Virus record (IMG/VR): IMGVR_UViG_3300031251_000002
Coordinates: 102,451-166,450 of that record
DNA from: a virus
Reading direction: 5' to 3' (one strand)
Length of the DNA stretch: 64,000 bases
Part shown: positions 54,073 through 64,000 of the stretch, one piece after another
Layout of the letters: every line of letters starts with the position of its first letter
Position numbering within the stretch: the stretch's first letter is position 1
The notes under the pieces: model-generated
What the model was told of the DNA's origin: nothing
What the model saw: the letters and a program-made list of their open reading frames with translations, nothing else
The model's database searches: none
Made by a program: the position numbers and the translations under genes

Positions 54073-56022
54073 ATGGATCTTCTGGAAAGCTTCGCAAAGA
54101 CCCTGACCGGGGATCCTTCGGTGTCGGTGGTGATGAAGGGTAAGGGCTGCTTTGTTGACCTTCAAACCAAGCAGATCAACATCCCGGCCATCTCCGTTCC
54201 GAACGGGACGAAAATTCCGCCGTACATCATCGGTTACTTGGATCATGAGGTCGGTCACCTGAAGTTCTCTACGGTTGCTGCGGAACGGCTGGTTCGGGAT
54301 GCCTTCAAGTCCGCTACGCCGTACGAACGAGCGGTGGCTGATTACGTTCACAATGTTCTCGATGACTGCCGTCAGGAGCCGCTGTTCATTCAGCGGTATC
54401 CGGGTGGTCGGTACTACCTTGGGATCGCGGCAGTGTTCGACATTGAGAACACGATTACCCGCGAAAGTGCGGAGGGAGTCGCCAGCAACAAGGCGCTGAC
54501 GGACCCGCGAGTTCTGGCGAGCATCGGTTACCTGCAAGGCTTCGCTCGGGCGTACTACGAGACCGGGCATCCGATGCCTGAGTCGGTTACCAGAGAGGCG
54601 CTGTCGTTGGCCGGGAAGTGGTTTCCTGAGTACAAGAAGTTGCCCCTCATGTCTCCGATGAAGGTCGCGGAACTGACCATTGAGTTTGTCAAAGCCAACC
54701 CGTACACGCCGCCCCCGCAACCGGCGGGTCAGCCCAAAAGGCAAGAGGGTGGCGAGGGTAGCGGTGAGGAGTCCGGTCCCGGTGGCCCTCCGGTTCCCGG
54801 CGAGGGCAAGGCTCAAGGTAAGGCCGAGGGCAAGGGCGCGGGTGACGAGGCCGAGGGATCGGGCGGAGGCGGGGTCGGCGGTTCGATGGCTGATCTCTCT
54901 GACGAGAGCGGGATTGAGTTCCTGAGCGGTCTCGGTCACGCGGGTAAGAAAGCTGAGTTTGATAAGCAGGTTGCTGAGATTCAGAAGCCTAACGTGCTGA
55001 CCGCTGACCGTGGGAGCAAAGCGGTTTACCCGCCCAGAACAACGGAATGGGACAAGGTTTTCAACTTCACTGCTGCCGTGTCGAAGGTGCTGGCCAGCGC
55101 TCCTGATGTTCTCAAGCAGGTGGTTGCCAGTACCGTCAAGTTCGATCAAACGACGAGCAACGTTCTCGGTCCTGTCCAGCGCAAGTTTCTCGGGGCGCAC
55201 AAGTCCCGTAAGACCGTGCGTGACTTCGATGGGTACGAGTTCTCGGATGACGCTTTCGTGTCGGTTGCTTCAAAAAATTTCCGTGGTCTGTATCACGACC
55301 GCGACAACAAGAAAACCATCAAGGGTACGGCGGTCACGCTTCTGCTCGACGTTTCCGGGTCCATGACTTCTGCTGGATCCGCTACGCTGTTCGGAGAATC
55401 CTCCAACGCAGCTACGGCTTCCATCTGGTCGGTCTGGGCCATGGCTTCGATTCTTCGCTGCCCGTTTGAGATTCTCGCCTACAGCACCGGGGACACCCCG
55501 GAAGATGTTCGGCTTGTGGCGGGGAAGGAGAGCGTGGGCTGGGTGCCGTTCAGGCGTACGGAGTCGGTGATTACTCACGTTATCAAGACCTTCGATGAGA
55601 AGTGGGGTCAGCAGCACAAGAACGCGCTGGTTGCCCTTCTCGGCGGCGGCGGGAGCGATCACAGCCCCAAGCTTTCGGTTCCCTCGACTCGAAACCTCTT
55701 GGTTGGTACGGCGCGTCAAATCTGGCGTGGCAACTGCGACGGTGATAACTTCTTGGTTGCAAGGGAGCGCATGATGCGCCGTCCCGAGGAGCGCAAGGTA
55801 ATCATCGTGGTCAGCGACGGTCAGCCGGTCGGCGCGTGTGTTCCGGACGAACACCCCAAGAGCTTCCTTCGGTATGAGATTGACCGCGCTATCAAGGCGG
55901 GCATCAAGGTTGTCGGTATCGGACTTGGCCGCGAGGGCGGGTACGTCAAACGGTTCTACCCTGTGTATCGGCATCTTATGAACCCTGCCGGGTTGGGTAA
56001 GGCGCTGATGGAAACGCTGTAA
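54073..56022 (+). CDS. cobT: CobT-like VWA protein, partner of the AAA+ ATPase
   Basis: 649 aa, SD AAGGAG. N-terminal helical domain contains GYLDHEVGHLKFST, an HExxH-like segment (HEVGH), and VHNVLDDCRQE. Residues 215-270 are a Gly/Glu/Lys-rich low-complexity linker. The C-terminal VWA has the MIDAS motif TLLLDVSGSMTSAGS, later VIIVVSDGQPVG. The HEVGH/DDC pattern is shared with CobT and other phage CobT-like proteins. With the ATPase it may remodel a phage or host complex; the target is unknown. Confidence 0.75.
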   Translation: MDLLESFAKTLTGDPSVSVVMKGKGCFVDLQTKQINIPAISVPNGTKIPPYIIGYLDHEVGHLKFSTVAAERLVRDAFKSATPYERAVADYVHNVLDDCRQEPLFIQRYPGGRYYLGIAAVFDIENTITRESAEGVASNKALTDPRVLASIGYLQGFARAYYETGHPMPESVTREALSLAGKWFPEYKKLPLMSPMKVAELTIEFVKANPYTPPPQPAGQPKRQEGGEGSGEESGPGGPPVPGEGKAQGKAEGKGAGDEAEGSGGGGVGGSMADLSDESGIEFLSGLGHAGKKAEFDKQVAEIQKPNVLTADRGSKAVYPPRTTEWDKVFNFTAAVSKVLASAPDVLKQVVASTVKFDQTTSNVLGPVQRKFLGAHKSRKTVRDFDGYEFSDDAFVSVASKNFRGLYHDRDNKKTIKGTAVTLLLDVSGSMTSAGSATLFGESSNAATASIWSVWAMASILRCPFEILAYSTGDTPEDVRLVAGKESVGWVPFRRTESVITHVIKTFDEKWGQQHKNALVALLGGGGSDHSPKLSVPSTRNLLVGTARQIWRGNCDGDNFLVARERMMRRPEERKVIIVVSDGQPVGACVPDEHPKSFLRYEIDRAIKAGIKVVGIGLGREGGYVKRFYPVYRHLMNPAGLGKALMETL

Positions 56023-62225: not shown

Positions 62226-62299
62226 AGGAGCGTGGTGTAATAGCAGCACGACGGATTCCAAACCCGTCAGCGAGGGGGCAGTACCTTCCGCTCCTGCCA
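62226..62299 (+). tRNA. tRNA-Trp (CCA), with unusual T loop
   Basis: Acceptor AGGAGCG pairs with CGCTCCT, discriminator G, CCA encoded. D arm TGGTGTAATAGCAGCAC; anticodon loop TTCCAAA gives CCA with an A-C mismatch closing the stem. The T stem GAGGG/CCTTC is present but its loop GGCAGTA lacks the usual TTCRA, so tertiary folding would be atypical. Confidence 0.75.
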
Positions 62300-62302
62300 A
62301 TT

Positions 62303-62390
62303 GGATAGGTGGCGAAATGGTAGCCGCGCTGGTTTGCTAAACCGGTGAGCCTCCTTGGCTCTGTGGGTTCAAGTCCCTCCCTATCCTCCA
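62303..62390 (+). tRNA. tRNA-Ser (GCU)
   Basis: Acceptor GGATAGG/CCTATCC, discriminator T, CCA encoded. Anticodon loop TTGCTAA gives GCU. The long variable arm GAGCC-TCCTT-GGCTC marks class II, as for Ser. T loop TTCAAGT. Confidence 0.85.
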
Positions 62391-62391
62391 T

Positions 62392-62467
62392 GGACTGCTA
62401 GCTTTGAAGGTCAAAGCGCCCACCTGAAGAGCGGGAGAACGTCGTTCAATTCGACGGCAGTCCACCA
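62392..62467 (+). tRNA. tRNA-Phe (GAA)
   Basis: Acceptor GGACTGC/GCAGTCC, discriminator A, CCA encoded. Anticodon loop CTGAAGA gives GAA, with one A-C mismatch in the stem. T arm CGTCG-TTCAATT-CGACG is canonical. Confidence 0.85.
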
Positions 62468-62478
62468 TGAAAGTTTTT

Positions 62479-62551
62479 AGTAGGGAGAATGAGTATTCCA
62501 GTTGGTCTCATAAGCCAACCTCCGTGGGTGCGACTCCCACCCCTGCTACCA
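62479..62551 (+). tRNA. tRNA with CAU anticodon (Met, or Ile if C34 is modified)
   Basis: Acceptor AGTAGGG/CCCTGCT, discriminator A, CCA encoded. Anticodon loop CTCATAA. The D loop is very short (GAAT-GAGT-ATTC) and the T loop TGCGACT departs from TTC. Elongator Met or tRNA-Ile2 cannot be told apart by eye. Confidence 0.75.
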
Positions 62552-62552
62552 T

Positions 62553-62626
62553 GCCTTCGTAGCCAAGTAGTTAGGCACCGGTCTGCAAAACCGGTTACGT
62601 TGGTGCAATTCCAACCGAAGGCTCCA
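62553..62626 (+). tRNA. tRNA-Cys (GCA)
   Basis: Acceptor GCCTTCG/CGAAGGC, discriminator T (U73 is a Cys identity base), CCA encoded. Anticodon stem-loop CCGGT-CTGCAAA-ACCGG gives GCA. T loop TGCAATT. Confidence 0.85.
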
Positions 62627-62639
62627 TTGAAATCGGTCT

Positions 62640-62706
62640 GGGGGAAGAGACGTTCGACTCGTCAAGAGGGGCTTGCTCCTCCTTAGTGTAACGGCAGCAC
62701 TCCCCC
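62640..62706 (+). ncRNA. Circularly permuted tRNA-like element
   Basis: Order of parts: anticodon-stem 3' strand GGGGGA (62640-62645); T arm GACG-TTCGACT-CGTC (62649-62663) with canonical T loop; acceptor 3' strand GAGGGG (62666-62671); linker CTTG; acceptor 5' strand CTCCTC (62676-62681); D arm AGTG-TAACGGCAG-CACT; anticodon-stem 5' strand TCCCCC (62701-62706). All five pairings of a cloverleaf exist, but the 3' half precedes the 5' half. The D-arm stretch is 14/17 identical to that of the tRNA-Trp here. No CCA is encoded in the linker. It may be a functional permuted tRNA, a processed structural RNA, or the remnant of a deletion between two tandem tRNAs. Confidence 0.6.
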
Positions 62707-62709
62707 GTG

Positions 62710-62786
62710 CAAATGACAGCCGTAAGGCGCGGGTAAAACGTAGGCGTCACGACACGCCAACCCTTCAAAGAAGGGGCCGTCATTTG
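62710..62786 (+). ncRNA. Second cloverleaf-like RNA following the permuted element
   Basis: CAAATGAC (62710-62717) pairs perfectly with GTCATTTG (62779-62786). Three hairpins lie inside: GCC-GTAA-GGC (GNRA tetraloop), GGCGT-CACGAC-ACGCC and CCCTTC-AAA-GAAGGG. The loops are not those of a tRNA. A competing helix CCCGTGC/GCGCGGG links it to the end of the preceding element, so the two may form one folding unit. Confidence 0.6.
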
Positions 62787-62806
62787 GTAATTTCCTCTAA
62801 ATCAAT

Positions 62807-62881
62807 CCGGGTGTGGGTCAGTGGCTGATCGCCTGTTTCGGGGACAGGATTAGGGAGGTTCAATTCCTCTCACCCGGACCA
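62807..62881 (+). tRNA. tRNA-Pro (CGG)
   Basis: Acceptor CCGGGTG/CACCCGG, discriminator A, CCA encoded. Anticodon stem-loop CCTGT-TTCGGGG-ACAGG gives CGG with G37, as in Pro tRNAs. T loop TTCAATT. Confidence 0.85.
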
Positions 62882-62977
62882 AAGTTTCCCGAAGAATTCC
62901 GAGAACTGTTTGGTGGTAGCTTGTCAAGGAGCCGGGGGGTATATGAAAACCCACGGTGAAAGTAGAAACCACAAACC
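62882..62977 (+). other. 96-base spacer in the tRNA array, no gene
   Basis: No protein frame or complete tRNA is visible between tRNA-Pro and tRNA-Tyr. GTTTGGTGG near the 5' side and CCACAAAC at the 3' side can pair with a one-base bulge. I see nothing further. Confidence 0.4.
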
Positions 62978-63067
62978 GGGCAAGTCGGATAGTAGCGATT
63001 CCAGCAGACTGTAAATCTGCCCTGTTTACAGCTAACACCGAAGGTGCAATTCCTTCCTTGCCCACCA
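62978..63067 (+). tRNA. tRNA-Tyr (GUA)
   Basis: Acceptor GGGCAAG/CTTGCCC, discriminator A, CCA encoded. Anticodon stem-loop GCAGA-CTGTAAA-TCTGC gives GUA. A long variable arm (TGTTTACAGCTAACA) marks class II, normal for bacterial Tyr. T loop TGCAATT. Confidence 0.85.
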
Positions 63068-63069
63068 TC

Positions 63070-63078
63070 TGCTATAAT
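63070..63078 (+). promoter_or_regulatory. Extended -10 promoter inside the tRNA array
   Basis: TGCTATAAT is a perfect extended -10 (TGnTATAAT), three bases after tRNA-Tyr. It would transcribe the hairpin-rich spacer (CCCG-GACA-CGGG and GCCGA-GTT-TCGG) and tRNA-Leu independently of the upstream leader. Confidence 0.6.
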
Positions 63079-63154
63079 TTTTGAATGCCGCATACAGTCG
63101 AGACTCATACCCGGACACGGGCCGAGTTTCGGGCACGAACCGGGAAACGTTAAT

Positions 63155-63231
63155 CCGCAGGTGAGGCAATTGGCAGACCTTCCAAACTCAAAATTTGGAG
63201 CTTGCGAGTTCAAATCTCGCCCTGCGGACCA
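63155..63231 (+). tRNA. tRNA with CAA anticodon (Leu codon UUG) on a class I body
   Basis: Acceptor CCGCAGG/CCTGCGG, discriminator A, CCA encoded. Anticodon stem-loop CCAAA-CTCAAAA-TTTGG gives CAA. T arm GCGAG-TTCAAAT-CTCGC is canonical. The variable loop is only 5 bases (AGCTT); bacterial tRNA-Leu normally has a long arm, so this is atypical for Leu. Confidence 0.8.
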
Positions 63232-63332
63232 TTTGATGAACCATGGAACCTCTGCTACTGAACGAGTGTTGTGTTCGGGGTAGCACGTTCAAGTCACAGC
63301 CACAACCTTCTGACAGCCATGGTTCTTCAAAT
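63231..63332 (+). ncRNA. Long-stem inverted-repeat element between tRNA and next gene
   Basis: Arms ATTTGATGAACCATGG (63231-63246) and CCATGGTTCTTCAAAT (63317-63332) pair over 16 positions with one T-T mismatch. The 70-base interior holds TGCTAC/GTAGCA around GAAC-GAGTGTTGT-GTTC. Size and position recall a tRNA precursor, but no CCA or normal anticodon arm is seen. The SD of the next gene starts two bases after the right arm, so it may control translation. Confidence 0.5.
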
Positions 63333-63341
63333 GGAGGTAAC

Positions 63342-63617
63342 GTGAACGAAAGACAGGCATACGAAACGAAGGTGTTACCAGACGGGCGAGTAATTGATGT
63401 TTACCCGCTGACGTTCGGTCGCGCTAGGATCACGATTTCTGAGTCCTTGTCGGATCCGTGTTACCTCGACGGTTGGTGATACGACACTCCAAAAGCCGCA
63501 GTTGCGGCGATGAAAAATTGGGATGGGACAGGCGAACCTGATGGCTGGATGAGACATCCGAGATCGGGCCGACGCCGCGAACACGGAGATCCCAAAACTG
63601 AATATGTGAATCTGTAG
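63342..63617 (+). CDS. Conserved small phage protein interrupted by an in-frame TGA
   Basis: GTG 63342 has SD GGAGGTAAC. The frame reads 45 codons to DPCYLDGW, then TGA (63477-63479), then continues in the same frame for 45 codons to TAG: YDTPKAAVAAMKNWDG, then TGEPDGWMRHPRSGRRREHGD, ending KTEYVNL. The second part is a pattern I know from small phage proteins (aAl..WdG.geP.gW.RhP.tGRRR..GDp..EYv), in which the first part is fused directly. A Trp at the TGA would be natural. Either the gene is recently broken or the TGA is read through. Confidence 0.65.
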
Positions 63618-63715: not shown

Positions 63716-64000
63716 ATGGGAAATCACAAAGTTGGTTGTGCGTGTCCGTTCTGTAGTCGTAAAGGAAGAAAGCGCTCTAAGGAAGAATTAGCCTTGATGG
63801 GGCGTACTGGTTGTCGAAATCGTACAGAGTACGAACGAGCGCTTTCTGAAAAGTTAGTCGGAGAAGGTTACGAGGTCTTCTCTCCGTGGTCAGCGTGTGA
63901 TCGAGTAGCATTGAAAGACGGCAAGGTATTTTTCGTGGAATTCAAAAAGCCACAACAGGAGCTAAGCCCAATTCAACAACGTGTTCATGATGCGCTCCCG
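63716..64000 (+). CDS. PD-(D/E)XK nuclease-like protein, 3' end cut by window
   Basis: 95 codons to the window end without a stop. An N-terminal zinc motif CACPFCSRKGRKRS is followed by a nuclease-like core: NRTEYERALSEKLVGEGYEVFSPWSACDRVALKDGKVFFVEFKKPQQELSPIQQ, in pieces an E helix, a D in ACDRVAL and the E-x-K of VEFKK. VRR-NUC and related phage nucleases share this order. AT-richer than most of the window. Function in phage or host DNA cutting is inferred. Confidence 0.6.
   Translation, partial: MGNHKVGCACPFCSRKGRKRSKEELALMGRTGCRNRTEYERALSEKLVGEGYEVFSPWSACDRVALKDGKVFFVEFKKPQQELSPIQQRVHDALP

Follow-up and report, generated by a model that had tools for sequence, protein, structure and literature searches.

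A small bacteriophage gene with an in-frame UGA codon that is probably read as selenocysteine

The reading frame and its surroundings

The window analysed here is a stretch of 64,000 nucleotides from a virus record (IMG/VR IMGVR_UViG_3300031251_000002, positions 102,451 to 166,450). Near its 3' end lies the frame 63342-63617, whose only internal stop is TGA 63477-63479 and whose terminal stop is TAG 63615-63617. Its translation runs VNERQAYETK...CYLDGW, the internal stop, YDTPKAAVAAMKNWDGTGEPDGWMRHPRSGRRREHGDPKTEYVNL and the terminal stop. Because a GGAGG lies 4 bases upstream of GTG 63342, position 63342 is supported as the start. The first-pass annotation had proposed that the frame continues past the TGA to the TAG, and both the frame and the conserved homologues confirm this. 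The features considered below are:

62226..62296, + strand: tRNA-Trp with a CCA anticodon (the "odd tRNA-Trp" of the first-pass annotation); Rfam RF00005, 39.6 bits; missed by ARAGORN
63333..63337, + strand: Shine-Dalgarno sequence GGAGG, read off the sequence, 4 bases 5' of GTG 63342
63342..63617, + strand: putative phage selenoprotein gene, 91 residues, with selenocysteine (Sec) as residue 46, GTG start and TAG stop; supported by homology and purifying selection both before and after the TGA
63477..63479, + strand: candidate Sec codon TGA (UGA); the same column is TGA in 33/33 members of one clade and Cys in 35/35 others
63495..63508, + strand: putative bSECIS hairpin, GCCGC, loop AGUU, GCGGC; from third-codon-position covariation across TGA members and published rules

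TGA is the commonest stop of long + strand ORFs in the window (19 of 45). Thus, the avoidance of UGA as a stop that is expected under a reassigned genetic code is not seen and there is no code change, in agreement with the earlier annotation. A profile of the family (A3) matched a single place in the phage record, containing one TGA.

The end of the record (window 63880-64000) recurs at its start (G000 positions 1-130, locus L072), with more than 100 bases shared. The 166,450-base record therefore probably represents a whole phage genome that is either circular or terminally redundant. An array of tRNA genes wraps round the record ends (window 62226-63231 and L072:152-6201), with 26 tRNAs found by ARAGORN and two by Rfam only (the tRNA-Trp with CCA at 62226-62296 and one with CAT at 62479-62548). 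Between tRNA-Leu and the putative selenoprotein gene, window 63236-63328 contains the inverted arms GAACCATGG and CCATGGTTC, for which Rfam gave no match at E 1. Elsewhere, window 54073-56022 encodes a large protein with a weak match to a CobT cobaltochelatase subunit (phrog_17276) as well as a match to phrog_1576, of unknown function.

Homologues and the hairpin downstream of the TGA

With the read-through protein as query, relatives were found in isolated phages, plasmids, IMG/VR contigs and two genome contigs. When aligned, 33 distinct homologues have TGA at exactly this site, all in a single column, which is far more than chance would give; 32 of them are viral (the window included), and the other lies in a Planctomycetota MAG, in a region that resembles a phage. 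The 35 other homologues examined, from phages, plasmids and one genome, all have cysteine (TGC or TGT) at the site. Isolated phages with the Cys form infect Brevundimonas, Caulobacter and Sinorhizobium, and the plasmids with it come from Skermanella, Sphingosinicella and Pseudomonas. A DNA pattern around the TGA and hairpin matched 29 stretches, all of them family members, and yielded 16 further distinct members. Among 392 Planctomycetota genomes, no member was found other than that in the same MAG.

Neither Trp nor TAA nor TAG occurred at the site in the 68 homologue rows (33 TGA and 35 Cys). The codon scan admitted only Cys or a stop at this position, so that relatives with other residues could escape it; the raw translations of 45 viral loci, one of which (L063) ends before the site, showed no other residue there. 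L063 is on the same contig as L008, where positions 297-410 encode a GWMRHP-type relative that lies close to the contig end and lacks its 5' part, including the Sec site.

These alignments bear directly on the first-pass annotation. It had suggested looking for TGA in the same place in related phages, which was found, and for Trp at that place in aligned homologues, where Cys was found instead; its idea of a second Trp fails on the same ground, since the non-TGA relatives all have Cys. A fresh nonsense mutation and a sequencing error at 63477-63479, both of which it had considered, are excluded by the 32 other distinct sequences with the same TGA.

In a tree of the family, the TGA members group together as a single clade (support 100/96), with one label change that recurs in all 200 bootstrap trees; the TGA thus does not represent 33 independent events. 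Four Cys members sit beside this clade. The tree is built on few columns, with unsure inner forks and a root placed by midpoint only. Synonymous sites between TGA members are saturated (dS above 2), and over such divergence a purposeless, unselected stop would have been lost. Among these members dN/dS is about 0.28 before the TGA and about 0.14 after it, indicating that purifying selection acts on the protein on both sides of the codon, including the downstream part. This conservation supports the first proposal that the TGA is translated.

The hairpin in the window has a 5 bp stem, a loop (AGUU) that starts 20 nt after the UGA, and a folding energy of -12.7 kcal/mol. Because this stem is unremarkable by itself (synonymous shuffle p 0.58) and chance stems of at least 6 bp occur in 34 of 271 TGA-ended ORFs, the case for the hairpin is comparative. 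A short hairpin is present in nearly all TGA members, its loop (mostly GGUC) beginning 20 nt downstream of the TGA; in L028 the stem is displaced by one base. This hairpin is conserved in TGA members only, not in Cys members. Across the TGA members 94% of cells are paired, and the covariation exceeds that in all 500 shuffles. The third-codon-position pairs 18-33 and 21-30 are each paired in 31/33 TGA members (shuffles p <= 5e-5), with GC, CG, UA, AU, GU and UG all occurring. The pattern used to find the 16 later members left these positions free, and these members alone gave p 3e-4 and 1e-4. Control third-position pairs gave p 0.14-0.99, and in the Cys members pairs 18-33 and 21-30 were paired in 13/35 and 12/35 sequences, respectively (p about 0.7). 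The stem was 7.3 bp in TGA members versus 4.3 in Cys members (p 4e-8), and synonymous shuffles gave p 0.006 and 0.0013 for TGA members versus 0.998 and 0.63 for Cys members.

Published rules for bSECIS elements ask for a loop of 3-9 nt with a G in its first two bases, a stem of 4-16 bp, a distance of 16-37 nt from the UGA and an MFE <= -7.5 (PMC13188914). They are satisfied by 31/33 TGA members versus 13/35 Cys members, although in 4 of the 31 the MFE fold satisfied them with a different hairpin from the conserved one; 27 of the 31 have a loop that begins at exactly 20 nt. The two that failed were L039 (loop AAUU) and L110. We considered whether the hairpin might be an artefact of palindrome-prone Ala-Ala-Val-Ala-Ala codons, which the third-position covariation and the Cys control group rule out. 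Taken together, the alignments indicate that the hairpin is under selection at the RNA level. Searches for further Sec genes returned one strong site per phage record with an RNA model (R1), the others being weak (best E 0.0012), and noise only in an ORF scan of the window and the record start.

Decoding of the UGA

Selenocysteine, which was absent from the options listed by the first-pass annotation, is the best-supported reading of the UGA. From the sequence comparisons, we put the probability at roughly 0.93 that 63342-63617 encodes a small selenoprotein in which UGA 63477-63479 is read as Sec through the hairpin by host machinery. A bacterial-type SECIS hairpin 20 nt downstream would recruit host SelB with Sec-tRNA-Sec to the UGA; by analogy with the established bacterial pathway, such delivery by SelB is the most likely route. 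The phage would contribute the mRNA signal and the protein only, with SelA, SelB, SelD and tRNA-Sec coming from the host, and where the host lacked Sec decoding or selenium the product would presumably end at 45 residues.

SelA, SelB and SelD were not found in 15 virus records, and ARAGORN detected no UCA anticodon anywhere in the record of the window phage. Weak RF01852 matches in the phages, which might have indicated a phage-encoded tRNA-Sec, were tRNAs for Ser and Tyr in those cases to which ARAGORN was applied. The one TGA member with a known cellular setting, a single case (L074), lies in the Planctomycetota MAG (G015), adjoining phage replication genes. This MAG encodes SelB (363 bits), SelA (488 bits), SelD (326 bits) and a tRNA-Sec with UCA (71 bits), with the reservation that the contig of L074 is possibly misbinned. 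Its SelD (G015:C1:124619-125548, L121) contains a single in-frame TGA, which fits a SelD that itself carries Sec. In a Salipiger genome with a Cys member, also a single case, SelB was not above the cut-off and the tRNA-Sec-like match was a tRNA-Ser. The capsid and portal proteins of the window phage, examined for its host, gave distant relatives only, in many phages including T4-like ones. We infer selenium insertion and the use of host machinery.

Other decodings have to be weighed against this one. The U11-A24 state makes the E. coli tRNA-Trp a UGA suppressor (Hirsh). The phage tRNA-Trp, 1.1 kb upstream of the gene, has U11-A24 in its D stem in the cmscan alignment, U11-A24 being a common pair in tRNAs, and TGG directly precedes the TGA. 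One could therefore imagine that the UGA is read as Trp, or as another amino acid, by leaky read-through or a near-cognate tRNA, giving a mix of short and long product, and the first-pass annotation had listed suppression by this tRNA. However, the site is Cys in 35/35 non-TGA relatives and Trp in none, TAG or TAA never substitutes for the TGA, and the hairpin resembles a SECIS in its covariation, its G-rich loop and its constant distance of 20 nt. Moreover, no stop is used more often in the window than TGA, and the protein-coding neighbours differ, with no neighbour family common to the TGA loci. We reject tRNA-Trp 62226-62296 as the UGA decoder, given its ordinary CCA anticodon and the Cys in the relatives, and consider read-through of this kind very improbable in general.

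The Cys in the relatives would itself fit a host tRNA-Cys with a UCA anticodon that decodes the UGA as cysteine with no selenium, and such tRNAs exist in some bacteria. Yet a SECIS-like hairpin would then be superfluous, and the phage otherwise uses TGA as an ordinary stop, has a tRNA-Cys of its own with a GCA anticodon and, by ARAGORN, has no UCA anticodon in its record; the sole cellular setting seen has a normal tRNA-Sec together with SelA, SelB and SelD. We regard this decoding as slightly less probable again. As for a true stop, with the 3' part a separate gene or a decaying remnant, nothing speaks in its favour beyond the stop codon itself. The 3' part is more conserved than the 5' part (dN/dS 0.14 versus 0.28), is in the same frame in 33/33 TGA members, and in the 35 Cys relatives runs on from the 5' part without a break, leaving this the least probable of the alternatives.

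The protein, its relation to known systems and its significance

Pfam, NCBIfam and PADLOC gave no family match for the window protein. Three Cys relatives match phrog_24748 (E 2e-6 to 1.6e-8), which is listed as being of unknown function, but the window protein does not match it at E 1. An AlphaFold2 model (pLDDT 86.9, pTM 0.75) has four strands (8-11, 17-22, 28-33 and 43-47) and one helix (50-59); residue 46 falls within strand 43-47. A fold search with this model and a PDB sequence search gave nothing significant. The alignments contain no conserved second Cys and no conserved UxxC or CxxU motif; as regards a thioredoxin-like fold, for which CxxU or UxxC would be expected, the model of four strands and one helix gives no significant fold match. 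The invariant Sec/Cys stands alone, with no second conserved Cys to pair with, in what is predicted to be a beta strand. Our guess is that this residue may act as a nucleophile, take part in redox chemistry or bind a metal, and that the protein is a small phage accessory protein.

The motif GW is followed, in the Sec clade, by Met in 25 of 33 members, by His in one (L074) and by another residue in 7; in the Cys members it is followed by His (GWHRHP), or by Arg in two phages. The first viral scan demanded M or H after GW, so that this part of the count is biased; among the 16 later members, which were unrestricted, none has His. L074 is an early-branching TGA member that retains the His. These sequence differences suggest that the His may activate the Cys thiol in the Cys form, a base that could be dispensable with a selenol. 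Because the TGA loci share no family of neighbouring genes, the gene looks like a movable accessory gene.

A 2026 inventory of bacterial selenoproteins, which gives 119 families and subfamilies as prokaryotic, does not contain the words phage, virus or viral (PMC13188914). As in its bSECIS selenoproteins, the family described here has an in-frame UGA conserved at one place with coding continuing after it (33/33; dN/dS about 0.14 after the UGA), relatives with Cys at the UGA site (35/35 non-TGA relatives), and a stem-loop 16-37 nt after the UGA with a G in the first two loop bases. Unlike the families in that inventory, it is phage-borne, without an NCBIfam or Pfam match, a conserved UxxC or CxxU motif or a significant match to a known fold. 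The viral selenoproteins known from the open-access literature are the glutathione peroxidases of poxviruses (molluscum contagiosum and fowlpox), which are virus-encoded and use host Sec machinery, as proposed here; they are captured cellular GPX genes with a eukaryotic SECIS (PMC8310308), whereas the present family is borne by bacterial viruses and has Cys relatives of its own among other phages and among plasmids. A Sec component has also been claimed in Basilisk-like Bacillus phages, in the form of a tRNA-SeC gene; the passages found in that report describe the tRNA gene only and mention no selenoprotein (PMC6145125), the reverse of the window phage, which has a Sec gene without a tRNA-Sec.

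Phages are not discussed in papers that cover the selenoproteomes of the Sargasso Sea and GOS, the evolution of Sec or the detection of tRNA-Sec. Our searches of the open-access literature turned up no phage selenoprotein, which is weak evidence of priority. By the tests available, the family appears to be a bSECIS selenoprotein family in which the decoding mechanism is known, the family is new and the carriers are phages. We lean towards the view that it is the first bacteriophage selenoprotein family, in which a catalytic or binding Cys was replaced by Sec once and the Sec was kept through deep divergence, tying the gene to selenium-using hosts.

If this is correct, some phages rely on host selenium metabolism for one gene product, and the hosts of TGA-bearing phages would narrow to Sec-decoding bacteria. 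Small phage genes interrupted by a UGA would also be going unnoticed or receiving truncated annotations. A phage-borne family, a small gene present in many different bacterial viruses, would join the known selenoproteins, and its 33 Sec and 35 Cys members would provide a natural experiment on why Sec replaces Cys.
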